Notes: generated by a model from the sequence alone, not told the origin. A DNA stretch of 64,000 nucleotides from Rhodothermales bacterium (GCA_024711125.1 JANJTM010000001.1:1-64000), one strand, 5' to 3'; positions 3,436 through 15,016 are shown, counted from the stretch's first letter. Numbers and translations are program-made.

Positions 3436-3475
3436 AAAAGCCCGCGGCCGGTGCAGACCCGACCGCGGGCTTTTT
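3436..3475 (+). terminator. Rho-independent terminator after TPR gene
   Basis: The stem AAAAGCCCGCGG pairs with CCGCGGGCTTTT around a 15-base loop and is followed directly by a run of five T. It sits 18 bases past the TPR stop codon. The A run on the left and the T run on the right could make it work in both directions. Confidence 0.92.
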
Positions 3476-3527
3476 CGTATCGTGTCGGCCCATTCCCCGG
3501 CGCCCGCCCGACGCCCGGCGCCGCATC

Positions 3528-4292
3528 ATGCCAGCACCCATGGTACAGATCGACGAAACTGCGCGTCTCGGCACCGGCACCACCGTCGGCGCCTTCAGCG
3601 TGATCGGACGCAACGTGACGATCGGAACGGGCTGCGTACTCGGCAGCGGCGTCGTCCTGCACGACGGGGTGACGATCGGCGATCACGTGCGCATCGACGA
3701 CCACGCGGTGATCGGAAAACAGCCGATGCGCGCCCCCAACTCGGCCGTCACCGGCGACCGCGCGCATGACCCCACCGTCGTCGGCCCGCGCTGCCTCGTC
3801 GGGACCCACGCCGTCCTCTACGCCGGATGCAGGTTGGGCGAGAAGGTGCTCGTCGCCGACCTGGCTACCATCCGGGAGGACGTCACGGTGGGCGATTTCA
3901 CGATCGTCGGACGGGGCGTCGCGATCGAGAACCGGTGCGTGATCGGACGGTACTGCAAGCTGGAGACCAACGCCTACATCACGGCCTACTCGACCCTCGA
4001 GGACCGCGTCTTCGTCGCGCCGGGAGTGCTGACATCGAACGACAACTACATCGGGCGCACGGAGAAGCGGTTCGCTGCCTTTCGCGGCGTGATCGTACGG
4101 AAGGGCGGCCGACTGGGCGTCGGAAGCGTGGTCCTGCCCGGGCGCGAGATCGGCCACGATGCGGTGGTGGCCGCCGGAGCGGTGCTCACGCGCGACGCCG
4201 ACGCCGGCGTGATCCATGCCGGAGTCCCTGCGCGCCCGTTCCGGGACGTACCCGACGACGAGCGGCTCGAAGCGCAGGGGTGGATCGATTGA
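3528..4292 (+). CDS. Hexapeptide-repeat N-acyltransferase (sugar modification)
   Basis: A 254-residue protein made almost entirely of left-handed beta-helix hexapeptide repeats ([IV]G-x(4)), for example VTIGDHVRIDDHAVIG and VGDFTIVGRGVAIENR. This is the fold of acetyl-CoA or acyl-CoA dependent sugar acyltransferases such as WbpD/WlbB and the LpxA group. It is followed 43 bases later by a DegT-family aminotransferase. That pair (amination then N-acetylation of a 3-keto NDP-sugar) is the classic arrangement for making diamino- or 3-acetamido-sugars for surface polysaccharide; this is an inference from context. An alternative start at the second Met (MVQIDE, 12 bases later) is equally plausible. 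Not LpxA itself: it lacks the usual C-terminal helical domain. Confidence 0.8.
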   Translation: MPAPMVQIDETARLGTGTTVGAFSVIGRNVTIGTGCVLGSGVVLHDGVTIGDHVRIDDHAVIGKQPMRAPNSAVTGDRAHDPTVVGPRCLVGTHAVLYAGCRLGEKVLVADLATIREDVTVGDFTIVGRGVAIENRCVIGRYCKLETNAYITAYSTLEDRVFVAPGVLTSNDNYIGRTEKRFAAFRGVIVRKGGRLGVGSVVLPGREIGHDAVVAAGAVLTRDADAGVIHAGVPARPFRDVPDDERLEAQGWID

Positions 4293-4335
4293 GACCGGAC
4301 GGGCGTTCCTGCCCGCCGACCATTGGGCTACCGGG

Positions 4336-5496
4336 ATGAACGAACGCACGCCGATCCACATGGTGGATCTCAAGGGCCAGTACGACCGCATCGCCACGGA
4401 CATCGACGCCGGCATCCGCCGCGTGATCGAGTCGTCGGCCTACATTCGCGGACCCCAGGTCGGAGAGTTCGAGTGCGCCCTGGCGGGTTATCTCGACGTG
4501 CCCTACGCGCTGGGTGTCGCCAACGGAACGGACGCCCTGCAGATCGCCCTTATGGCGCTCGGAATCGGCCCCGGCGACGAGGTCGTGACGTCGGCCTTCA
4601 CGTTCATAGCGACTGCCGAGGCGGCGGCCCTGCTCGGCGCGGTCCCCGTGTTCGCCGACATCCATCCGGACACGTTCAATCTCGACCCCGCCGGATTGGA
4701 GGCCTGCATCACGCCGCGGACACGGGCGATCGTGCCGGTGCACCTTTTCGGCCAGCCGGCCCGGATGGACGAGATCGCGGCCATCGCCGAACGACACGGC
4801 ATTCCCGTCATCGAGGACAACGCCCAGGCGATCGGCGCGAGCTACCTCGGACGCCGGACCGGCGGAATCGGAACGATCGGAACCCTGTCGTTCTTCCCGT
4901 CCAAGAACCTGGGCTGTTACGGGGACGGGGGCGCGGTCGTCACGCGGGACGAGGACCTGTATCGCCGGATGCGCCTGGTGGCCAACCACGGATCGGCCCG
5001 CAAGTATCACAACGAGGTCGTCGGCGTCAACTCGCGACTCGACACCCTCCAGGCAGCGATCCTGCAGGCCAAGCTTCCGCACCTGGACGCCTACAACGCG
5101 GCCCGTCGGGCGGCGGCCGACCGCTACGACGCCCTGCTTTCCGGCATCCGCGGCATCCGGATCCCGGGGCGGGATCCCGATGGCGTGCACGTATTCCACC
5201 AGTACACGATCCGCGTGACCGTCGGAGACGGTATTGACGGAGGTGCGGCACGGGACGACCTGGCAGCGCACCTCGCCGCCGCCGGGATACCGAGCGCGGT
5301 GTACTATCCCGTGCCGCTGCATCGCTTGGCCGTTTTCGCGCCCGGCGGGCCGGCGACGGCCCGGTTCGGCGCGCTTCCGCACACCGAGCGGGCGGCGACC
5401 GAGGTGCTCTCGTTGCCGATGCACACGGAACTGACGGAGGAACAGCTCGTGCGGATCGCCGAAACCGTGGCCGGGTGGGCCGCCGACCGGGCCTGA
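4336..5496 (+). CDS. DegT/DnrJ/EryC1/StrS family aminotransferase
   Basis: A 386-residue PLP enzyme of the sugar aminotransferase family. Visible features are GTDALQIALMALGIGPGDEV (substrate/PLP region near residue 60), the EDNAQAIGA motif, and SFFPSKNLGCYGDGG with the PLP-binding Lys near residue 190. The enzyme moves an amino group from glutamate to a keto-NDP-sugar. The start was placed at MNERTPIHMVDLKGQY, which matches the family N-terminus (the conserved VDL.xQY stretch), rather than the longer upstream frame that overlaps the acyltransferase. With the acyltransferase it forms a two-gene amino-sugar unit; the dehydrogenase that would make the keto sugar is not in the window. It converges on pilB with 17 bases between the stops. 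Confidence 0.88.
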   Translation: MNERTPIHMVDLKGQYDRIATDIDAGIRRVIESSAYIRGPQVGEFECALAGYLDVPYALGVANGTDALQIALMALGIGPGDEVVTSAFTFIATAEAAALLGAVPVFADIHPDTFNLDPAGLEACITPRTRAIVPVHLFGQPARMDEIAAIAERHGIPVIEDNAQAIGASYLGRRTGGIGTIGTLSFFPSKNLGCYGDGGAVVTRDEDLYRRMRLVANHGSARKYHNEVVGVNSRLDTLQAAILQAKLPHLDAYNAARRAAADRYDALLSGIRGIRIPGRDPDGVHVFHQYTIRVTVGDGIDGGAARDDLAAHLAAAGIPSAVYYPVPLHRLAVFAPGGPATARFGALPHTERAATEVLSLPMHTELTEEQLVRIAETVAGWAADRA

Positions 5497-5513
5497 GCCC
5501 CGATTTCCGGGAT

Positions 5514-8477
5514 TTATTCCGACGCCGTCGTGCGCAACATCTCCTCGACCGAGGTTTCGCCGCGGAGCACGAGGATGCGCGCCGAATCCTGCAGGGTGAG
5601 CATGCCCTCGGCGATCGCGAGCTGCCGGATTTCGTCCTCGTCTACCTCGTTGCCCGATTCGGCGATGGCGTGGCGGATCTTCGGAGAGAACGACAGGGTC
5701 TCGCTGATGGCGCGGCGGCCCTTGTAGCCCTTTCCACCGCAGACGGGGCACTTGGCGTCCTGGCCGGCCTTGTAGATCGTCGCGCTCTCGATGTCCTCGT
5801 TCGAGAACCCGAGGTTTTTCATCAGGACGTGGTCGCGCTCGTGATCCTCGACCTTGCACTTCGAACACAGCGTCCGGATCAGGCGCTGCGCCACGATCAG
5901 GTTGATGGCGTACGCGATCAGGAAGGGCTCGATGCCCATCTTGTAGAGTCGCGAAACGGCCGCCGGAGCGTCGTTCGTGTGAAGGGTCGAGAAGGTCAGG
6001 TGCCCCGTGTTCGCCAGCTTGATGGCCAGTTCGGCGGTCGCCTTGTCACGCATCTCACCCACCATCACGACGTCGGGGTCGTGACGCAGCACGGCGCGCA
6101 GCGCGCCTTCGAGGTCGAGCTTGTTGCCGAGCTTGATCTGGCGCACGCCGCTGATGATGTACTCGACCGGGTCTTCGATCGTGAGCACGTTCACCTCGGG
6201 CGTGACGACCTGGTACAGCGCGGCGACCAGCGTCGTCGACTTTCCCGAACCCGTGGGACCCGTCAGGATCACCATGCCGTGCGGCTGGCGGATCGCGTGA
6301 TCCATGCGCGCCATGGCGGCCTCGAGCATGCCGAGCTGGCGCAGGTCGGTGAGCACCTTGCGGTCGTCCAGGATTCGGATGACGATGGATTCGGCCCGGA
6401 TCTCCTGGTTCGCCGACGCGATCGGCAGCACGCTGACGCGGAACCGGATCAGCGCGTCGTCGATGCGGCGCTGGATGTACCCGTCCTGCGCCATGTCCCG
6501 CTCGAAGCGGTCGACGTTCATCGAGTTGTCCTTGACGACCGCCAGGAACGACTCGGGGTGGATCTTGTCCTCGCACAGCCAGCGGCGCAGGCGACCGTCC
6601 ACGCGGAAGTGGATCTCGGTCTGCCGCTTGCCGTTCGGGAAGATGTGGATGTCCGACGCGCCCTGGCGCACGCCCTCGAGCAGGGCGGCTTCGAACAGGT
6701 TGATCAGCGTCGAGCGCGAGATCTCGGCCTCGAGCGCATCCTCGTCGATCAGGCCGTTGCGGGCCTGGTCGAAATCGGTGCCGAGGTCGTAGGCCATCGG
6801 ATCGTCCGACAGCTTGTCGAGGAACTCGTTGCGCCGCGGGTAGATGGCCTCGACCGCCGACGCGATGCCCCGTTCCGAGGCGTATCGGAGTTCGAACCGC
6901 CCCAGCTTGAGCTGGGCGATGGTCCGGTGCACATCCGCGCGGGCGGGGTCGTGGGTTACGAAGATCAGGCGCGCGCCGCCCGTTTCCGGATCGACGGCAT
7001 ACTCGTACGGAAGCAGGTTGAGCCGCAGCAGTTCGTCGCGGTGGTCCTCCGCGATGGTCTGCATGATGAGCTGCACGAACTCGTGGTCCGGCTGGCCCGG
7101 CCCGATGGGCACCTCGGGGAAAGCGTAGACCTTCGCCGACTCCGAGAAGACGACCTCGCGGTCGACGCCATCCGTGCTGGCCAGGGAGCGCCAGAGGGCT
7201 TCTTTTCCGCCCTCGCCCGCGTTGCGCTCGAGCGCCTTCGCCACCAGAGCCGGGGTGACGAGGCCCTTCTTGACGAGGTTGGCGACCACGCGGTCCTTGC
7301 GGATGCGACGGTCGAGCTGGCTGGCATCCGGGGGAGCGGACTTCGCGGCCTCTGCCGGTTCGGCGTTCGGCTCGTCCGTGGGGGCCTGGCCCTCCCTCTT
7401 CGGCCACGGTCGGGCCGACGCCCGGTCCGAAGCCGACGCCACGGGACCGCGATCCACGCGCGCAGGGCGCTGCGTTCGGGCAGCGTTGGCATGATCGAGT
7501 CCCGGAACCGGGACGGGCTTGGGCAGGACATCCGGCCACTCCTCGCGGCTTAGGCCCGTAGTCGGCAGCAGGGCCGCCAACACGGGAGCGATCGCGGACG
7601 GACGCGCGAACCTGAGCTCCGATTCCATCGGAAGGCGACCGCACAGTTCGGCCAGGACGGCATCGCCGGGGTCGGCGGCGGCCAGCACGATGCGGTAGCG
7701 GTTGGTTTCCTCGGCGATCCCGACGTCCACCGGCACCGCGCCCCGGGCGACGAGCGCGTCCACGCGATCCCCGGGCATCGATTCGCGCATCGACGCGAAG
7801 AGCGCCGCGGTCGGCGTCTCGGTGGTGAACACGTATTCCGGGAATCCGCGTTGGCGGGCCGCCTCGAGCAGGACGCGGTCCCGGTCCATGCCGTCGATGT
7901 CGACCAGGGCTCGCCAGAGCGGCACGTCGACCTGCTTCGCCCGGATCGCGGCATAGACGTCGGCAAGGCGTATCGCGTTGTCGTTGAGCAGCGCGAGCAC
8001 GACCTCGTCCTTGACCACGCCCGACGTGTCGGCAGTGTCCTCGCCGGGTTCCGTTCCGGTTTCCTCCGGCTGCGCGGTGGCGTCGGCGAATACCGCATCC
8101 TCCGCATCGATCGACCCGTCGCCCGTCGCCGATGTCGCAGACGCGGGCAGTTGGATGTCCGAAACGGTGATCAGGTCGTCGAGGCCGGACGCGATGAACT
8201 TCTCGACCTCCCGGTACACCTCGTCGAGTCGTTCGAGGCTCGACCAACGCATCAACTCCGGGTCACTCCCCACCTGCTCCAGCGCGGCCGCGTTCGCGGC
8301 CGGCATGAGGGTCTCGGCATCGAGATCGATATCGAGATCGGCCAGCTCGCGCGCCACCTCCTGCCACAGTTCGTCGAGCGGATCCGGCGCCGTGCGATCC
8401 GCATCCTCACCCGGCGCGCCGGCACCGGACGGCACGCCGGCGGGCTCGAGCGGATATCGGGAATCCTGGTGCTGCAT
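5514..8477 (-). CDS. pilB: Type IV pilus / type II secretion assembly ATPase (PilB/GspE)
   Basis: A 987-residue protein, far longer than the usual 550-570. The C-terminal 400 residues are a complete GspE/PilB motor: ASDIHIFP (Asp box start), Walker A GPTGSGKSTT near residue 742, Walker B-like VVMVGEMRD near residue 810, a conserved His region FSTLHTNDA, and a four-Cys zinc site (CSKC near 872, CPVC near 912). The N-terminal half holds an acidic low-complexity stretch (1-150), then two similar helical/alpha-beta modules (about 165-310 and 405-560) that resemble degenerate GSPII_E/MshEN domains, separated by a charged linker. It is the last gene of the minus-strand operon pilin-pilin-pilC-pilB. 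No retraction ATPase PilT is seen nearby. Confidence 0.9.
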   Translation of the reverse strand: MQHQDSRYPLEPAGVPSGAGAPGEDADRTAPDPLDELWQEVARELADLDIDLDAETLMPAANAAALEQVGSDPELMRWSSLERLDEVYREVEKFIASGLDDLITVSDIQLPASATSATGDGSIDAEDAVFADATAQPEETGTEPGEDTADTSGVVKDEVVLALLNDNAIRLADVYAAIRAKQVDVPLWRALVDIDGMDRDRVLLEAARQRGFPEYVFTTETPTAALFASMRESMPGDRVDALVARGAVPVDVGIAEETNRYRIVLAAADPGDAVLAELCGRLPMESELRFARPSAIAPVLAALLPTTGLSREEWPDVLPKPVPVPGLDHANAARTQRPARVDRGPVASASDRASARPWPKREGQAPTDEPNAEPAEAAKSAPPDASQLDRRIRKDRVVANLVKKGLVTPALVAKALERNAGEGGKEALWRSLASTDGVDREVVFSESAKVYAFPEVPIGPGQPDHEFVQLIMQTIAEDHRDELLRLNLLPYEYAVDPETGGARLIFVTHDPARADVHRTIAQLKLGRFELRYASERGIASAVEAIYPRRNEFLDKLSDDPMAYDLGTDFDQARNGLIDEDALEAEISRSTLINLFEAALLEGVRQGASDIHIFPNGKRQTEIHFRVDGRLRRWLCEDKIHPESFLAVVKDNSMNVDRFERDMAQDGYIQRRIDDALIRFRVSVLPIASANQEIRAESIVIRILDDRKVLTDLRQLGMLEAAMARMDHAIRQPHGMVILTGPTGSGKSTTLVAALYQVVTPEVNVLTIEDPVEYIISGVRQIKLGNKLDLEGALRAVLRHDPDVVMVGEMRDKATAELAIKLANTGHLTFSTLHTNDAPAAVSRLYKMGIEPFLIAYAINLIVAQRLIRTLCSKCKVEDHERDHVLMKNLGFSNEDIESATIYKAGQDAKCPVCGGKGYKGRRAISETLSFSPKIRHAIAESGNEVDEDEIRQLAIAEGMLTLQDSARILVLRGETSVEEMLRTTASE

Positions 8478-8497
8478 AGGGGACGGCCTGCGGGCGA

Positions 8498-9856
8498 CTA
8501 GTTCTTCTTCCGCAAGTCCTCGGCGCTGGGCTGGATGAGCGCCAGTTCCGAAGAGATGATCGTGAGACCCATGATGCCGATCGTGATGATGAGCGCGACG
8601 ACGGTCTGGATCATTTCCACGGTGGAACGAAGCTTCAGCGTCGTCTCGTTCTCGTAGTAATCGGCCATTTGTCGCGCGGCATTACGTACGTTTCCCGTTT
8701 CGGAACCGGACCGGAAGCGCGCGAGCGCCATCGACGTGAACACGCCGCTCGCTTCCATGGCGCGCACGAGATCCGCGCCCTGCGCGACCATCATGGGCAC
8801 CGTGATCGTCTTGATCCGGTGCTCCATGTAGCTGTTGCCGCACGCTTCGGCGGCGATCTTGATGACCGTGATGTTGTCTCCGGAGCCGGAGTACAGCACG
8901 GCGAACACGCGGCAGAAGATCTCGATGTTCAGTTTGTGGAGCAGCCCTCCGATGACCGGGATGCGGATCAGGTTGCGATGCAGCCAGAACTGCCCTTTCT
9001 GCGTGCGGAAGAACGCAACGAGCCCGCCGATGACCAGGACGAAGAGGCCGAGGATCCAGAGGTAATTCTGGTCCATCCAGGCCGAGAAGGCGAGCGTCTT
9101 CTGCGTGAGCGGCGGCAGTTCGATGTCGAAGTCGGCGAACAGGCCGGCGGTCTTGGGGAAAATCGACCAGACGTACCAGACCAGCGCGGCGATGAGCACG
9201 GCCAGCGTGATCGCCGGCGTGACCATCGCGCTCTTGACGCTCTTCTTGAATTCGTTCTGGCGTTCGAGGAACCGCGCCGTCGCGTCGTAGATCTCGCTCA
9301 TGTTGCCCGAGCGCGACGCGATACCCAGCATGTAGGCCGTGAACTTGCCCAGCATGTGCTGGTGCTTCATGAAGGCCTGCTGGGCCTCCATGCCGCCCTT
9401 GAGGTCGGCGTTCAGGTCGCGGATGACCTGCTTCAGGCTCTTCGACGACACGTCGTTGACCAGCAGGTTCAGGACCTCGTCGAACGGAAGCTTCTCCTTG
9501 AGCAGGTTCGCCGAAAGCCGCACGAACATGATCATGTCCTGCTGCGGCGGCTTCGACTGGTACTCGAACAGCGGTCGCTGGATCTTGATGACCGTGAGGC
9601 CCATCTTGCGCAGCGCGCCGGCGAGCTCGTCCTGCGAGAAGGCCTTCTGCTCCCCCTCGACGATCGTTCCGTTGGGATGCTTGACCTTGTAGCGGTACAT
9701 CTGCCGCTGAAGGATCTCGCGTGTGCGGAATCCGTGGCGTTCGGCCAACGCGTTGACCTTTCGGGTCGCCGCGTTGCGGTTCGCCGCGAATACCGTACCC
9801 TGGACCGGCTGCCCGACCCGGCTGGTTCCGCTGAACTTGAATTCCTTGACGGCCAT
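8498..9856 (-). CDS. pilC: Type IV pilus / type II secretion inner-membrane platform protein (PilC/GspF)
   Basis: A 452-residue polytopic protein. It contains two GspF/T2SSF repeats: one around residues 90-240 with FVRLSANLLKEKLPFDEVL, the other around residues 300-450 with EIFCRVFAVLYSGSGDNI. Three transmembrane stretches are visible near residues 215-235, 265-285 and 425-445. The first 80 residues form a small soluble start with PVQGTVFAANRNAA, the frequent PilC/GspF N-terminal stretch. PilC couples the ATPase to pilin extraction from the membrane. The gene lies 16 bases after the second pilin-like gene and 20 bases before pilB, so all are surely cotranscribed. Confidence 0.92.
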   Translation of the reverse strand: MAVKEFKFSGTSRVGQPVQGTVFAANRNAATRKVNALAERHGFRTREILQRQMYRYKVKHPNGTIVEGEQKAFSQDELAGALRKMGLTVIKIQRPLFEYQSKPPQQDMIMFVRLSANLLKEKLPFDEVLNLLVNDVSSKSLKQVIRDLNADLKGGMEAQQAFMKHQHMLGKFTAYMLGIASRSGNMSEIYDATARFLERQNEFKKSVKSAMVTPAITLAVLIAALVWYVWSIFPKTAGLFADFDIELPPLTQKTLAFSAWMDQNYLWILGLFVLVIGGLVAFFRTQKGQFWLHRNLIRIPVIGGLLHKLNIEIFCRVFAVLYSGSGDNITVIKIAAEACGNSYMEHRIKTITVPMMVAQGADLVRAMEASGVFTSMALARFRSGSETGNVRNAARQMADYYENETTLKLRSTVEMIQTVVALIITIGIMGLTIISSELALIQPSAEDLRKKN

Positions 9857-9872
9857 GGCGGTGGCGTCCCTG

Positions 9873-10286
9873 TCAGTCGTCGATGGTGATGCTGCCGTCG
9901 AATTTCACGTCGGTCCGGAGGACCTCGTATTCTTCGACGTACGTGCGGATACCCAGCTCGGGGTAACGCAGGCTCACGCCGGTCACTTCGAGCGTACCGT
10001 CGGTGGCGGCCGTGATGACGACGACCCCGGCCTCGGTGGTGTCCGACAGCCCGATCTTGGCATTGCCGTTGGTCGCCAGGCCGGCGTACGAGGCGTTGCC
10101 GCCCACGAACGGATCCTTGCGGATCTTCCAGGCGACGGCCGCCGAGGCGACCGTGAGTCCCCGATCGACCAGGCGGTCGGCCGCGCTCTGGCGGATACCC
10201 TGCTGCACGGCCTCGATGCCGGCGAGCACGGCGATGGCCGCCACGATGAGCGAGATCGCGAGGAGGAGAAGTTGCTGCTGTCCCAT
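9873..10286 (-). CDS. Pilin-like protein, minor/second copy (MGQQQ type)
   Basis: A 137-residue protein with a single N-terminal hydrophobic helix right after MGQQQ (LLLLAISLIVAAIAVLAG), then a helical stretch and a C-terminal part rich in beta-forming residues. This is the overall plan of a type IV pilin or pseudopilin, but there is no basic leader peptide, no Gly-Phe cleavage site and no Glu at position 5 of the mature chain. It is a diverged paralogue of the upstream gene: both share MGQQQLLLL, an Ala-Asp-x-Leu-Val-x-x-Gly stretch and an AW-K-[IL] motif about residue 50. Placed between the other pilin-like gene and pilC. No Shine-Dalgarno sequence precedes its ATG, unlike the first copy. 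Function as a pilus subunit is inferred. Confidence 0.7.
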   Translation of the reverse strand: MGQQQLLLLAISLIVAAIAVLAGIEAVQQGIRQSAADRLVDRGLTVASAAVAWKIRKDPFVGGNASYAGLATNGNAKIGLSDTTEAGVVVITAATDGTLEVTGVSLRYPELGIRTYVEEYEVLRTDVKFDGSITIDD

Positions 10287-10436
10287 GTCGTGTCAGAATT
10301 GGCAGTGGCGCAGGGCAGATCGAGGGCACCCGTGGGGTATCGTCGCCGTTCGCGTTTCCTTAACCCGAAGGGCGCGCTGATTTCGACCGTGGTCCAGGCC
10401 GGAGGGCGGCCGGACGCCGGGGCACAATAACGAAGC

Positions 10437-10462
10437 GGGCGGCACCCCGAAGAGTGCCGCCC
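10437..10462 (-). terminator. Stable hairpin between the two pilin-like genes
   Basis: A perfect nine-base stem GGGCGGCAC / GTGCCGCCC with an eight-base loop lies 35 bases after the stop of the first pilin-like gene. There is no T run on the minus strand, so it is not a classical terminator. A partial terminator or mRNA 3'-end stabiliser that raises the amount of the first pilin over the rest of the operon is plausible. Confidence 0.55.
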
Positions 10463-10496
10463 GCCGCGGAAGGTTCGAGGACAACCGTCCGATGAC

Positions 10497-10901
10497 CTAG
10501 AGCATCGTGATGGTCGTCGCGATGTCGTCGGGCGTCGTGCCGTCGACCGTCACCTCGACTTCAGCGAAGTCGCTCGTGCCGGTGATGACGAACTCGGTTC
10601 CGTCGGCCGTATCGACCGTCCACGTGCCGTTCAGGTTCTCGTAGTCGCCGTCGCCGTTGACCTGGTAACCCAGCGACTGGAAGTCGAGGCCGGTGAAACC
10701 GGTGATCGAGGCGCCGCCGCCGAAGGCAGCCGGCTTGAGCTTCCAGGCCTGCACGTCGCTGGCGATGCGGACGCCGTCATTGACGAGCGCGTCGGCGTTG
10801 GCCTTGGCCTGGTTTTCGGAGAAGGCCTGGATACCGACGACGACCGCGAGGCCGACGATGACGATACCGAGCACGAGGAGAAGGAGTTGCTGCTGACCCA
10901 T
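10497..10901 (-). CDS. Pilin-like protein, major/first copy (MGQQQ type)
   Basis: A 134-residue protein: MGQQQ, then a hydrophobic helix (LLLLVLGIVIVGLAVVVG) to about residue 24, a polar helix (FSENQAKANADALVNDG), a QAWKLKPAAFGGG motif near residue 52, and a beta-rich acidic C-terminus ending in EVTVDGTTPDDIA. It is the first gene of the pilus-like operon and has a clear Shine-Dalgarno sequence (GGAGG eight bases before ATG), rare among its neighbours, which suggests strong translation and a major-subunit role. The protein lacks the prepilin leader and Glu5 of canonical type IV pilins. Alternatives are a minor pseudopilin or an uncleaved membrane-anchored adaptor; the operon context favours pilin. 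Confidence 0.72.
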   Translation of the reverse strand: MGQQQLLLLVLGIVIVGLAVVVGIQAFSENQAKANADALVNDGVRIASDVQAWKLKPAAFGGGASITGFTGLDFQSLGYQVNGDGDYENLNGTWTVDTADGTEFVITGTSDFAEVEVTVDGTTPDDIATTITML

Positions 10902-11013
10902 GGTTCAACCTCCGGGGTTGTTTCGTTCAGTTGGGGCTTGATCGGATTGGCTCCGGGGGAGGTATCGACGGACTCTCGCCCGGCTTAAATCCGATCGGCT
11001 GACAAGTTGGTGT

Positions 11014-11043
11014 GAAGGGGTCGGCACCCTTGGCGACCCCTTC
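11014..11043. promoter_or_regulatory. Perfect 10-bp stem-loop in pilin operon leader
   Basis: GAAGGGGTCG pairs with CGACCCCTTC around a ten-base loop. It lies about 113 bases upstream of the first pilin-like start codon, so it would be in the 5' untranslated region if transcription begins at the AT-rich dyad further upstream. It could stabilise the mRNA or act as a regulatory element; there is no T run to make it a terminator. Confidence 0.5.
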
Positions 11044-11065
11044 GGGCAGCCCGGTGAGCCGGTCA

Positions 11066-11084
11066 CGGGACATATATCGTCCCG
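11066..11084. promoter_or_regulatory. Operator-like dyad with AT core
   Basis: The 19-base sequence CGGGAC-ATATATC-GTCCCG is a perfect six-base inverted repeat around a seven-base AT-rich centre. In such GC-rich DNA the TATATC core could serve as a -10 element, placing a dimer-binding operator over a promoter. It lies between the divergent pilin-like operon and the DUF4342 gene and could serve either. Confidence 0.4.
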
Positions 11085-11204
11085 GCCGTGACGGCCTTTA
11101 GTCGCCATCCCGTATTTTTTCCGTACCACCGATCGGGAGCCGTTCCGGGGCAACACCGAGGCCCCGTCGGCGTAGGAAACCGGCCATCATCCGGAGCCCG
11201 AACC

Positions 11205-11513
11205 ATGGACTCGTCCCGTATCTCGTTCGAAGAAATCAAGGTCAAGGGCAGCCAGCTCGTCGAAAAGGTCAAGGAACTCATCCACGAGGGCAGCGCCCGC
11301 CGCGTGACGATCCGCAAGGACGGTCGTGTCCTCCTGGAATTTCCGCTCACCGTAGGGGTCGGAGGTGCCACGGCGGCCATCATGTTCACTCCGGTCCTCG
11401 CGGCGGTCGGCGCGTTGGCCGCACTCGTCAGCGACGTGGACGTGGAGATCGAGCGGCAGGTCGACGACGAGACGGCCGAAGACGACCCCGCTTCGGAGGG
11501 CCCCGACGCGTGA
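11205..11513 (+). CDS. DUF4342 domain protein
   Basis: A 102-residue protein. The N-terminal half (FEEIKVKGSQLVEKVKELIHEG) and the following RRVTIRKDGRVLLEFPLT match the DUF4342 pattern; a hydrophobic Gly/Ala stretch (VGVGGATAAIMFTPVLAAVGALAALVSD) about residues 50-78 suggests membrane association. The tail is acidic. Function unknown; relatives are often found fused to or near ubiquitin-associated-like helical domains. Start chosen at MDSSRISFEE because the longer frame has no homology to the family. The stop overlaps the GTG start of the next gene (GTGA), so the two are translationally coupled. Confidence 0.75.
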   Translation: MDSSRISFEEIKVKGSQLVEKVKELIHEGSARRVTIRKDGRVLLEFPLTVGVGGATAAIMFTPVLAAVGALAALVSDVDVEIERQVDDETAEDDPASEGPDA

Positions 11514-12493
11514 CCGTTCCCCCGTCGGCTCCGGGTCCGTTGCCCGTTTCGTTCGACGACGTCCTGGAGGCCGCCGACCGCCTGGACGGCGTCGCCCACC
11601 GTACCCCCGTCGTCACGTCGCGGCAGCTCGACGCCGTGTGCGGCGCGCGGGTCTTCCTGAAGTGCGAGAATTTCCAGCGGGCGGGGGCCTTCAAGTTCCG
11701 CGGCGCCTACAATGCCCTTTCGCGGCTCAAGGAGCGGGACGGCGCCGACGCCGTGCTCACGTTCTCGTCGGGCAACCACGCCCAGGCGGTCGCCCTCGCG
11801 GCCTCCCTGCTCGGGCTCCATGCCGTCGTCGTGATGCCCGAAGACGCCCCGGCCATCAAGCGGGCGGCCACGGCCGGGTACGGTGCCGAGATCGTGACCT
11901 ACGATCGGACCACGACGTCCCGCGAAGAACTGGCCGCCCGCCTCTCTTCCGAACGCGGACTCCCCGTGGTGCCCCCGTATGACCACGTGGACGTCGTCGC
12001 GGGACAGGGCACGGCCGCGCTCGAGCTGATCCGCGAGACAGGTTCGCTCGACGTGCTGGTCGTGTGCTGCGGGGGAGGCGGACTGCTGTCGGGGAGCGCG
12101 ACGTCGGCGAAGGCTCTCCTCCCGGGATGCCGGGTGGTCGGTGTCGAGCCCGAAGCGGGCGACGACGCGACCCGATCGTTCCGTTCGGGCGTGCTGCACT
12201 CGGTGGTCAACCCCGATACGATCGCCGACGGCGCGCGCACGCCCAGTCTCGGACGCATCACGTTTCCGATCGTCATGGCCCGCGTCGATGACATGGTGAC
12301 CGTTACCGACGCCGCACTGGTCCGTGCCATGCGCTTCGGGTGGGAACGGCTCAAGCTGGTCATGGAGCCCACGGGCGTGCTCGGCCTCGCCGCCGTGATG
12401 GAGGGCGCGGTGCGCGCCCCGGGTGCCCGTATCGGAGTCGTGATCAGCGGCGGCAACGTCGACCCCGCGTCGGCGCTCCGATGGATCGCGTGA
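11510..12493 (+). CDS. PLP-dependent threonine/serine dehydratase-like enzyme (serine racemase / hydroxyaspartate ammonia-lyase group)
   Basis: A 327-residue fold-type II PLP enzyme. The PLP Lys is in FKFRGAYNAL near residue 62, preceded by KCENFQ; the phosphate-binding Gly loop is CCGGGGLLSG near residue 185. The stretch VGVEPEAGDDATRSFRSG and later TIADGARTPSLG closely follow threo-3-hydroxyaspartate ammonia-lyases and serine racemases, more than biosynthetic IlvA, which also carries a regulatory ACT domain absent here. The enzyme deaminates or racemises a hydroxy amino acid. GTG start, overlapping the DUF4342 stop by four bases; its own stop overlaps the next gene by 13 bases. Confidence 0.85.
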   Translation: MTVPPSAPGPLPVSFDDVLEAADRLDGVAHRTPVVTSRQLDAVCGARVFLKCENFQRAGAFKFRGAYNALSRLKERDGADAVLTFSSGNHAQAVALAASLLGLHAVVVMPEDAPAIKRAATAGYGAEIVTYDRTTTSREELAARLSSERGLPVVPPYDHVDVVAGQGTAALELIRETGSLDVLVVCCGGGGLLSGSATSAKALLPGCRVVGVEPEAGDDATRSFRSGVLHSVVNPDTIADGARTPSLGRITFPIVMARVDDMVTVTDAALVRAMRFGWERLKLVMEPTGVLGLAAVMEGAVRAPGARIGVVISGGNVDPASALRWIA

Positions 12494-13308
12494 AGATGGC
12501 CGGGGACCCCGCGGCCCTGAAGACCTACCTGGATGGCCTCGTGGAGCGTTTCGAACGTCCCGAGTTCATCGACGCCGACCCGGTTTCGGTCGTGCACGCC
12601 TTCGACGACCCCGGAGACCGGGAGGTGATCGGCCTCTACTGCGCGCTGTTGGCCTGGGGACGACGGGACACCCTGTTGCGGAACCTCCACGATCTCTGCG
12701 AGAGGATGCGCATGCGTCCCCGGGCGTTCGCACTCGGGTACGTTGACGCACGCGACGGGCCACGACTCGCAGGGTTCGTTCATCGCACCTTCCGACCGGA
12801 CGACGCGCGGTCGCTCACGGCTGCCGTGGGCCGGGTACTCCGGGACCACGGATCGCTCGGCGAGGCGTTCCGGGCCGTGGACGACCCGTCGTCGCCCGAT
12901 GTCGGTTGCGGAATCGAGGCCTTCAGCCGTCTTCTCGCGGAGTCGGCGCCGGGACGCCCCGCGCGGCTCCGAAAGCACCTGGCCCGACCGTCGACGGGTA
13001 GCGCCTGCAAGCGGTTCTGCATGTACCTGCGCTGGATGGTGCGTCCGGGACCGGTGGATACCGCTTCGTGGGAGGGGGTCTCCCCTGCCCGTCTCGTACT
13101 GCCCCTTGACGTGCACTCGGGGCGGCAGGCCCGCGCCCTCGGCCTGCTCGAACGCAGGCAGGACGACTGGAAAGCGGCGCTGGAACTCACCGGGGCCTGT
13201 CGACGCCTCTCGGCGGACGATCCCTCCCGGTACGATTTCGCACTGTTCGGCGCCGGAGCCTTCGGCGTTCCGCTCGACCCGCGTTTCGTGCGGGCTGCAA
13301 CGGCCTGA
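12481..13308 (+). CDS. TIGR02757 (DUF2400) family protein
   Basis: A 275-residue soluble protein of the TIGR02757 family, common in Bacteroidota and relatives and without a known biochemical role. Typical family stretches are visible: DPVSVVHAFDDPGDREVIGLYCALLAWGRR-like start (near residue 30), KRFCMYLRWMVRP near residue 180, and LVLPLDVHSGRQARALGLL near residue 205. The conserved His-rich/aromatic pattern hints at a helical DNA-glycosylase-like fold (HhH-GPD relatives), an inference only. It overlaps the dehydratase gene by 13 bases and converges with the flavin reductase gene with six bases between. Confidence 0.82.
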   Translation: MDRVKMAGDPAALKTYLDGLVERFERPEFIDADPVSVVHAFDDPGDREVIGLYCALLAWGRRDTLLRNLHDLCERMRMRPRAFALGYVDARDGPRLAGFVHRTFRPDDARSLTAAVGRVLRDHGSLGEAFRAVDDPSSPDVGCGIEAFSRLLAESAPGRPARLRKHLARPSTGSACKRFCMYLRWMVRPGPVDTASWEGVSPARLVLPLDVHSGRQARALGLLERRQDDWKAALELTGACRRLSADDPSRYDFALFGAGAFGVPLDPRFVRAATA

Positions 13309-13314
13309 GGCGGC

Positions 13315-13833
13315 TCAGTCGTCGGCGCGCCGGGCGAGTTCGCCCCCCACCGTACGGTACGAGCGAAGGAAGTACAGCACCGGCTCACCCGCGTCGACCG
13401 CCGAAACCTCCACGACCCGGCCGACGAAAAGCGAGTGATCCCCGGCATCGTACTCGGCCCACGGCTCGCAGACGAACGTGGCAAGTACCCCGTCCAGGAG
13501 CGGAAGCCCGTCCGGCTCGACGCGGTGCGGAACGCCCGCGAACTGGGCATCGCGATCGAGGCCGGGATCGGCGAACCGGTCGGACAGGCCCGCCTGGTCG
13601 GACGCGAGCACGTGCACGGCGAAACGCCGCGCGCCGGAAAGCAGGCCGTGGAATCGAGCCGATCGTTGCACGTTGAACGACACCAGGGGCGGATCCAGCG
13701 ATACGCTGGTGAACGAGGCGATGGTCACGCCGCGGGGCTCGCGTCCGCCGACGGTCACCACGGTCACCGTCGCCGGTACGAAGCGCATCGCGGTCCGGAG
13801 TCCATCCCCGTCCACGCTCAGTGGTTGCTGCAT
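13315..13833 (-). CDS. Flavin reductase family protein (FMN-binding split barrel)
   Basis: A 172-residue protein: LRTAMRFVPATVTVVTVGG, then GVTIASFTSVSLDPPLVSFNVQ near residue 40, and FAVHVLASDQAGLSDRFA near residue 70. These are the FMN-binding and dimer motifs of the flavin reductase-like/HpaC family, which hands reduced flavin to a monooxygenase or reduces FMN with NAD(P)H. It is 16 bases downstream of dnaJ, so it is likely read through from the heat-shock operon. No partner monooxygenase is in the window. Confidence 0.85.
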   Translation of the reverse strand: MQQPLSVDGDGLRTAMRFVPATVTVVTVGGREPRGVTIASFTSVSLDPPLVSFNVQRSARFHGLLSGARRFAVHVLASDQAGLSDRFADPGLDRDAQFAGVPHRVEPDGLPLLDGVLATFVCEPWAEYDAGDHSLFVGRVVEVSAVDAGEPVLYFLRSYRTVGGELARRADD

Positions 13834-13849
13834 CCTTGGGTCCGTTCGA

Positions 13850-15016
13850 TCAGGAGAAGACGTCCCGCACCCGGCTGAAGAACGACCGCTTGTCGTCCCG
13901 TGCCCCGGGATCCGGTTTGAACGAGACCGACCCCCTCAGGCGCTCGAGCAGGGCCGTTTCTTCGTCGGTCAGCGTGCGCGGGGTCCATACCTGGATCCGG
14001 ACCATCTGGTCGCCCCGGCGCGTGCTCTCGAGATCGGGCAATCCCCTCTCCCTCATGCGCAGCACCTTGCCCGACTGGACACCCGGATCGATCTGGACCT
14101 TCGCACGTCCCTTGAGTGTCGGAACCTCGACTTCCGTTCCAAGCGCGGCGTCGGGAAACGAAAGGTGCAGGTCGTAATAGACGTCGAGACCGTCGCGGCG
14201 GAAGTGCTCGTGCGCGAGTTCCTCGATCTCGACGCGCAGATCGCCCGCCTCCCCGCCCCGAATCCCGGCGTTCCCGGCCCCGCGCAGGGTCAGGTAGTGG
14301 CCCTCCAGTACGCCGGCCGGCACGTTGATGGCGATCGTCTCCTCCCCCTTCACGCGCCCCTCGCCGGCACAGGCGGCGCACCGGCTCTTGAGGATCCGTC
14401 CTTCGCCCCGGCACGTGGGGCACGGCTGCACGTTGACGAACTGGCCGAACACCGACCGCGTGACCTGGCGGACCTCACCCGAGCCCTGGCACATCGTGCA
14501 CGGGGCGAATCCCTCCTTCTCGTTCTCCACGCCCTTGCCAGCGCACTCGCCGCACGGCGTGTACTTGCGGACCTTGATCTTCTTCTCGACCCCCTCGGCG
14601 ATTTCCTCCAAGGTGAGCGGAAGCTTGATCCGCAGATCGCTGCCGGGCCTGCCGCCGCGCGGACCGCGCCGGGCGCGCTGCTGCGAGCCGAACACCTCGT
14701 CGAAGATCGAGCCCGAACTGCCGAAGATGTCGGAAAACGCGCTGAAGATGTCGTTGATGTCCTGGAACCCGGGCTGACCGCCCTGGCCCCCGTTTCCGCG
14801 TACGCCGGCGTGCCCGAACCGGTCGTACCGCTGCCGCTTCTCGGGGTTGGACAGCACCTCGTAGGCTTCGGCGGCCTCCTTGAAACGGGTCTCGGCCTCG
14901 GCATTGCCCGGATTGCGGTCCGGGTGATACTGCATCGCCAGCTTCCGGTACGCCTTCTTGATATCCTCGGCGCCGGCCGAGCGATCGACGCCCAGGATCT
15001 CGTAGTAGTCTCTCAT
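13850..15016 (-). CDS. dnaJ: Chaperone protein DnaJ
   Basis: A complete 388-residue type I DnaJ. J domain at residues 1-70 with the HPD motif ([14 protein letters not shown]); Gly/Phe-rich region about 75-130; zinc centre with four CxxCxGxG repeats ([32 protein letters not shown]) about 160-225; then the C-terminal substrate-binding domain with [17 protein letters not shown]. It stimulates the ATPase of DnaK. The gene is third in hrcA-grpE-dnaJ, 13 bases after grpE; dnaK itself is not in the window. Confidence 0.97.

Follow-up and report, generated by a model that had tools for sequence, protein, structure and literature searches.

Gene organization of the locus

The window analyzed here is a stretch of 64,000 nt from Rhodothermales bacterium (GCA_024711125.1 JANJTM010000001.1:1-64000), and the locus under study occupies positions 5514-10901 on its minus strand. 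As read from the open reading frames (ORFs), the order of transcription is MGQQQ-1, MGQQQ-2, pilC and pilB, and all four ORFs were found where the original prediction had placed them. MGQQQ-1 (10497..10901, 134 aa) encodes a predicted leaderless pilin, probably the major subunit; direct reading of the sequence revealed a Shine-Dalgarno-like GGAGG (10909..10913) 7 nt 5' of this gene. MGQQQ-2 (9873..10286, 137 aa) encodes a second predicted leaderless pilin. The two genes form a conserved pair before pilC and are paralogues (E = 4.7e-11), which agrees with the earlier assignment of both to one family. Between them, a terminator-like scan and RNA folding detected a strong 14-bp hairpin with a UUCG loop (10434..10465; RNA fold z-score, -2.54), a candidate attenuator that could possibly lead to an excess of MGQQQ-1.

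The downstream genes had been described as canonical, and both clearly matched the expected domains. pilC (8498..9856, 452 aa) encodes the platform protein (T2SSF in Pfam, E = 1.4e-29, with additional GspF/PilC matches in NCBIfam), and pilB (5514..8477, 987 aa) encodes the extension ATPase, which has a long N-terminal region (T2SSE in Pfam, E = 1.6e-98; TIGR02538 PilB, E = 9.5e-115, under the cut-off of that model). Profile self-comparison of this PilC and its homologues showed that the N-terminal cytoplasmic module is duplicated in tandem (P = 9.5e-6). The duplication is visible by profile comparison only, the pairwise self-alignment of the PilC N-terminus being weak. Open frames of PilC in MGQQQ systems are mostly 443-505 codons long, against 375-415 codons for most canonical second PilC frames of these genomes; as judged by length, the canonical PilC lacks the duplicated module. 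Any tie between the duplication and the leaderless pilins is speculative.

Absence of the leader peptide

The open frames around MGQQQ-1 and MGQQQ-2 comprise 135 and 139 codons, respectively, and because a stop codon is located almost directly upstream of each, a leader cannot be encoded at either gene. Among 152 distinct MGQQQ homologues, 144 have no in-frame alternative start upstream and just 3 have one at leader distance, and thus the absence of the leader is a property of the family rather than a miscalled start codon. The class III signal peptide of the type IV filament superfamily, a leader of 6-26 aa ending in Gly (PMC4471445), is accordingly missing from these proteins, which begin at the helix. 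Also missing is Glu5, a feature of the major pilins of this superfamily: none of the 152 sequences has an acidic residue at positions 3-9, and L8 occupies the aligned place of Glu5. The earlier claim that the leader, the Gly|Phe site and Glu5 are all absent is therefore upheld, and the MGQQQ starts are true N-termini. Residues 1-10 are uncharged and the segment following the helix is slightly negative on average (mean -0.9), from which we infer that the proteins are inserted N-in. Their N-terminus may be Met1, or Gly2 after the action of methionine aminopeptidase.

Predicted fold and relationship to known pilins

We predicted the structure of MGQQQ-1 with AlphaFold2, using an alignment of 67 sequences. 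The model (pLDDT 95.4) consists of a 53-residue helix (3-55), a loop and strands 93-97, 104-109, 113-119 and 127-133; that is, the extended N-terminal helix and beta C-terminal head for which the original prediction proposed to look. Type IV pilins are built from an alpha1 of ~50 residues and a four-stranded beta-meander (PMC4471445), and the predicted architecture of MGQQQ-1 corresponds to this plan, though without a significant Foldseek match: against the PDB, the best E-value was 0.54, and among the 50 matches listed the sole pilin was Shewanella PilA (rank 12, E = 1.4). No significant structure or homology match to a non-pilin family appeared.

Sequence comparisons pointed in the same direction at low scores. 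The MGQQQ pilins matched no family in Pfam, NCBIfam or PHROGs above the cut-off. A search of the PDB with the MGQQQ profile yielded ten matches up to E = 5, the best at E = 0.4-0.8 and none significant alone, and six of these were type IV pilins (geopilin three times, PilE1, a fimbrial protein and Thermus PilA5); an earlier MGQQQ profile ranked PulG first, weakly. These weak matches are mostly type IV pilins and share one gap-free register. In this common register, MGQQQ position n corresponds to mature pilin position n-3; a profile-profile comparison against six canonical pilins from the same phylum recovered it too, with a weak score. (For PulG, the register was read downstream of the membrane helix, because HMMER set a two-residue gap inside that helix.) G17 is consequently paired with the conserved pilin G14, F27 with F/Y24, L8 with Glu5 and Q25 with Pro22, and M1-G2-Q3 forms a three-residue overhang. 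Q5, counted from Met1, was also considered as a stand-in for Glu5 and was dropped, since independent alignments agree on the +3 register.

Distribution and conservation of the MGQQQ family

A protein search for relatives of MGQQQ-1 was positive for 103 of the 146 class genomes, and a profile search that combined the two paralogues was positive for 128 of the 395 phylum genomes; such a distribution indicates that the MGQQQ ORFs are not chance ORFs. We also scanned the contigs of named genomes with the peptide MGQQQLLL, which was not used in the protein and profile searches, and kept 80 of 450 related stretches, including those from Rhodothermales, Rhodothermus, Roseithermus, Salinivenus, Balneolaceae, Melioribacteraceae, candidate division KSB1 and Neomarinimicrobiota. 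Of the 58 named loci followed by 3 kb or more of sequence, 52 have a same-strand pilC just downstream of MGQQQ, no more than 3.5 kb away. Conservation is highest over the first ~25 residues of the protein. In the 67 aligned sequences, M1-G2-Q3-Q4-Q5-L6-L7-L8, G17 and G62 are invariant, part of the N-terminal invariance being an ascertainment effect, because the contig scan used MGQQQLLL.

The original prediction proposed that MGQQQ proteins should co-occur with pilC and pilB in other genomes. In the class, PilC is present in 98 of the 103 MGQQQ-positive genomes (MGQQQ alone, 5; PilC alone, 6; neither, 37; Fisher's exact test, P = 7e-23, where this and the following tests treat genomes as independent and ignore shared ancestry), and the expected co-occurrence was thus observed. 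MGQQQ-1 is likely the major subunit: it is more widely conserved, it is duplicated in several relatives, and the strong hairpin downstream could lower the expression of the later genes.

Several loci depart from the common arrangement. Two identical tandem copies of MGQQQ-1 occur in L067 and L088 (also in L012 and L022), which suggests that the major pilin gene was recently duplicated or underwent gene conversion. In L090, L095 and L096, from genus g4 of the same family, pilC is largely deleted or MGQQQ is fused to pilB remnants, and the system looks to be in decay, or else misassembled. Orphan pilin copies, with MGQQQ and no pilC within 3.5 kb downstream, were found in L075, L097, L110, L113, L124 and L142.

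Absence of Peptidase_A24 from most MGQQQ-positive genomes

A search of the source genome (G000) for PF01478 (Peptidase_A24) gave no match even at E <= 1; the same search gave matches in 12 of 14 genomes of a control set. Matches over the cut-off were obtained in 13 of 146 class genomes and 49 of 395 phylum genomes, and 15 phylum genomes contain both A24 and MGQQQ. No dedicated prepilin peptidase was detected in the source genome, nor in 92 of the 103 MGQQQ-positive class genomes, closed chromosomes included (both present, 11; no association, P = 0.35). MGQQQ therefore tracks PilC, not the prepilin peptidase. Loss of the peptidase in assembly gaps is an unlikely explanation, since the one-contig MGQQQ-positive genomes G003, G004, G010, G030, G035 and G060 also lack a match over the cut-off.

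The distribution of A24 follows instead that of canonical N_methyl prepilins (in the class: both, 12; A24 alone, 1; N_methyl alone, 3; neither, 130; P = 5e-14). We inspected eight A24 loci from MGQQQ-positive genomes and found a canonical prepilin motif close to the peptidase in seven of them (e.g. DEDGFSLTELLIVLAIIGIL; G|FSLTE type), the six prepilins that could be fully read having leaders of 14-34 aa; at the eighth (G043), the peptidase and an N_methyl match are ~1 kb apart. These results indicate that the peptidase is kept with a second, canonical system, and that the MGQQQ system can be present whether or not the canonical one is.

The original prediction had left two alternatives, namely cleavage by a prepilin peptidase after MG and use of the subunits uncleaved. 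Because most MGQQQ genomes, the source genome included, lack Peptidase_A24, cleavage after MG by the standard enzyme is disfavored, and uncleaved use is the best reading. An unrecognized peptidase outside the A24 family might remove a leader of two or three residues (MG|QQQ or MGQ|QQ), after which the N-terminal Gln may cyclize. Such an enzyme would account for the invariance of M1-G2-Q3-Q4-Q5 in the collected set, as expected of a cleavage motif, and the +3 register places Q4 at mature position 1. However, the invariance stems partly from collection by the pattern MGQQQLLL, a small residue at position 2 is accounted for by methionine aminopeptidase alone, and the minor-pilin-like proteins of the same operons, which begin with MPQT, MNTGE, MISLLD or MGKS, do not carry the motif. 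As the known prepilin peptidases are missing as well, we consider processing of this kind improbable.

Other components of the machinery

The locus had been regarded as a minimal operon with no peptidase, secretin or alignment genes nearby. This description is accurate for the locus itself, but a secretin and alignment-like genes are located on another contig of the same genome (C70; L150), together with PilT and further leaderless minor-pilin-like genes, and the designation 'minimal' must be rejected. The source genome contains three T2SSE genes and one secretin. On C70, genes oriented in one direction encode four leaderless minor-pilin-like proteins, starting with MPQSLLAF (3466-3855, 129 aa), MISLLDHIS (about 3858-4442) and, twice, MGKSAL (4560-6365 and about 6590-8194), followed by PilT (8228-9802; TIGR01420, E = 2.3e-93), a PilM/N-like protein (9828-11678), a PilO-like protein (11704-12732) and the PilQ secretin (12714-14159; Secretin over the cut-off, TIGR02515 E = 1e-27). 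PilT scored 313 bits against a curated TIGR01420 cut-off of 319, and we take it to be the retraction ATPase. The PilM/N/O labels are tentative and reflect gene position and weak PilN matches in relatives (E = 0.011 and 0.072), where the genes appear in the expected order and PilP was not identified.

In relatives, the gene set found on C70 directly follows pilB, often with a cNMP-binding regulator in between; in L119, L139 and other Balneolales loci, the cNMP-binding domain protein after pilB is a possible motor regulator. In order, size and motifs, the small membrane genes resemble the PilV/GspI, PilW/GspJ and PilX/GspK sets, and the minor-pilin-like proteins of both the source genome and its relatives likewise lack the leader. 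The model of a PilW/GspJ-like protein (L126:6551-7111; pLDDT 90.2) comprises a 56-residue helix and seven strands, and Foldseek found no significant match for it in the PDB.

A second PilB-type ATPase gene (L151 8584-10482; G000:C79:21101-22285) lies next to a same-strand ORF of 215 aa. No PilC was found near it, T2SSF in this genome being confined to the pilC of the window. In five relatives (L111, L115, L120, L137 and L084, three of which were scanned against Pfam), a Wzy_C O-antigen-ligase-type gene is inserted between the MGQQQ gene and pilC. This arrangement is known for pilin glycosylation ligases, and the Wzy_C-type gene is a candidate for such a ligase.

These components bear on the possibility that the genes specify a type II-secretion-like pseudopilus, acting as a periplasmic piston for protein export, rather than a surface pilus. 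The weak PulG/GspG profile match and the resemblance of the minor-pilin set to the GspI-J-K trio are in line with this possibility, and the so-called type II secretion system of Bacteroidetes groups with type IVa pili (PMC6668835). Nevertheless, we judge it unlikely, since a PilT-family retraction ATPase, typical of type IVa pili and not of type II secretion, lies in the same cluster as the secretin, the secretin itself scores highest as PilQ, and the Wzy_C ligase gene found next to the pilin gene in five relatives suggests that the subunits are exported and glycosylated. Although the absence of any significant pilin match by sequence or Foldseek would suit small bitopic membrane proteins that use PilB and PilC otherwise, for example as a sensor or scaffold, this is very improbable given the high-confidence pilin-type model, the pilin-like register with G14 and F/Y24 conserved, the nearly one-to-one occurrence with PilC in genomes mostly without a detected canonical pilin, and the accompanying secretin, PilT and minor-pilin-like genes.

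Discussion

We consider it quite probable that the window encodes the pilins, platform and motor of a complete type IV pilus-like machine, one with leaderless pilins and no prepilin peptidase. The gene content, distribution, conservation, predicted fold and absence of both the leader and the A24 family are results of this analysis; filament formation, membrane topology, the N-terminal state and function are inferences. MGQQQ-1, as the probable major subunit, and MGQQQ-2 would be translated without a class III leader peptide and inserted N-in via residues 6-24, with the beta head in the periplasm. PilC and PilB would then polymerize the subunits without removal of a leader by a prepilin peptidase, Met1 being at most trimmed by methionine aminopeptidase. 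PilT, the PilM/N/O-like proteins, PilQ and the leaderless minor pilins encoded on the other contig would complete the machine, and the outcome would be a filament that can retract and serves in adhesion, surface motility or DNA uptake. Somewhat less firmly, we favor the broader view that these systems constitute a phylum-crossing class of filaments without any prepilin processing, in which all pilins are made near-mature, with no charged leader and no pairing of an N-methylated residue 1 with Glu5.

The motor, platform, retraction ATPase and secretin families are common to this system and type IVa pili, as are the predicted subunit fold, with its N-terminal helix of ~53 residues and four-stranded beta head, and the minor-pilin set after pilB. 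In contrast to type IVa pili, all pilins of the system lack the class III leader, the MGQQQ majors lack Glu5 and Pro22, the PilC module is duplicated, PilM/N/O are barely recognizable and most MGQQQ genomes have no prepilin peptidase. Since the class III leader and the prepilin peptidase, both of which serve to define the superfamily, were looked for and not found, we place the system apart from the standard members of the type IV pilus group. It resembles the type II secretion pseudopilus in that PulG is among the nearest profile matches and an I/J/K-like minor trio is present. GspK has no acidic residue at position 5, and neither does the K-like minor pilin of the MGQQQ system. Unlike type II secretion, the MGQQQ system has no leader or GspO and carries PilT and a PilQ-type secretin. 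Archaeal type IV pilins and archaellins also often lack Glu5 (PMC4471445), but they keep class III leaders, with a peptidase in nearly all phyla, whereas the MGQQQ system is diderm bacterial, with a secretin and PilT.

Type IV filament machines are said to have few universal parts, the leader peptide and the prepilin peptidase being two of them (PMC4471445). A large comparative survey likewise treats both as universal, and it notes MSH loci that probably borrow their peptidase and peculiar systems in Bacteroidetes (PMC6668835). We found nothing in the open-access literature describing the MGQQQ family, leaderless or unprocessed pilins, or peptidase-free bacterial type IV pili. The genome paper on Melioribacter roseus reported pilT, pilQ, pilB and pilC, with pilA and pilD 'not found', and took the set as incomplete (PMC3534657). 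Melioribacteraceae loci carry MGQQQ right before pilC-pilB, and the MGQQQ genes are likely the missing pilins.

The range of the family covers many Bacteroidota (Rhodothermia, including Rhodothermus and Salinivenus; Balneolales; Ignavibacteria) as well as KSB1 and Marinimicrobia. It explains the annotation of pilus machinery without pilA and pilD in those groups, and supplies the pilins missing from surveys that used canonical N_methyl models. A lineage without leader or peptidase makes it possible to test directly what prepilin cleavage and Glu5 do, and, if the system is confirmed at the bench, the textbook definition of the type IV filament family would break.
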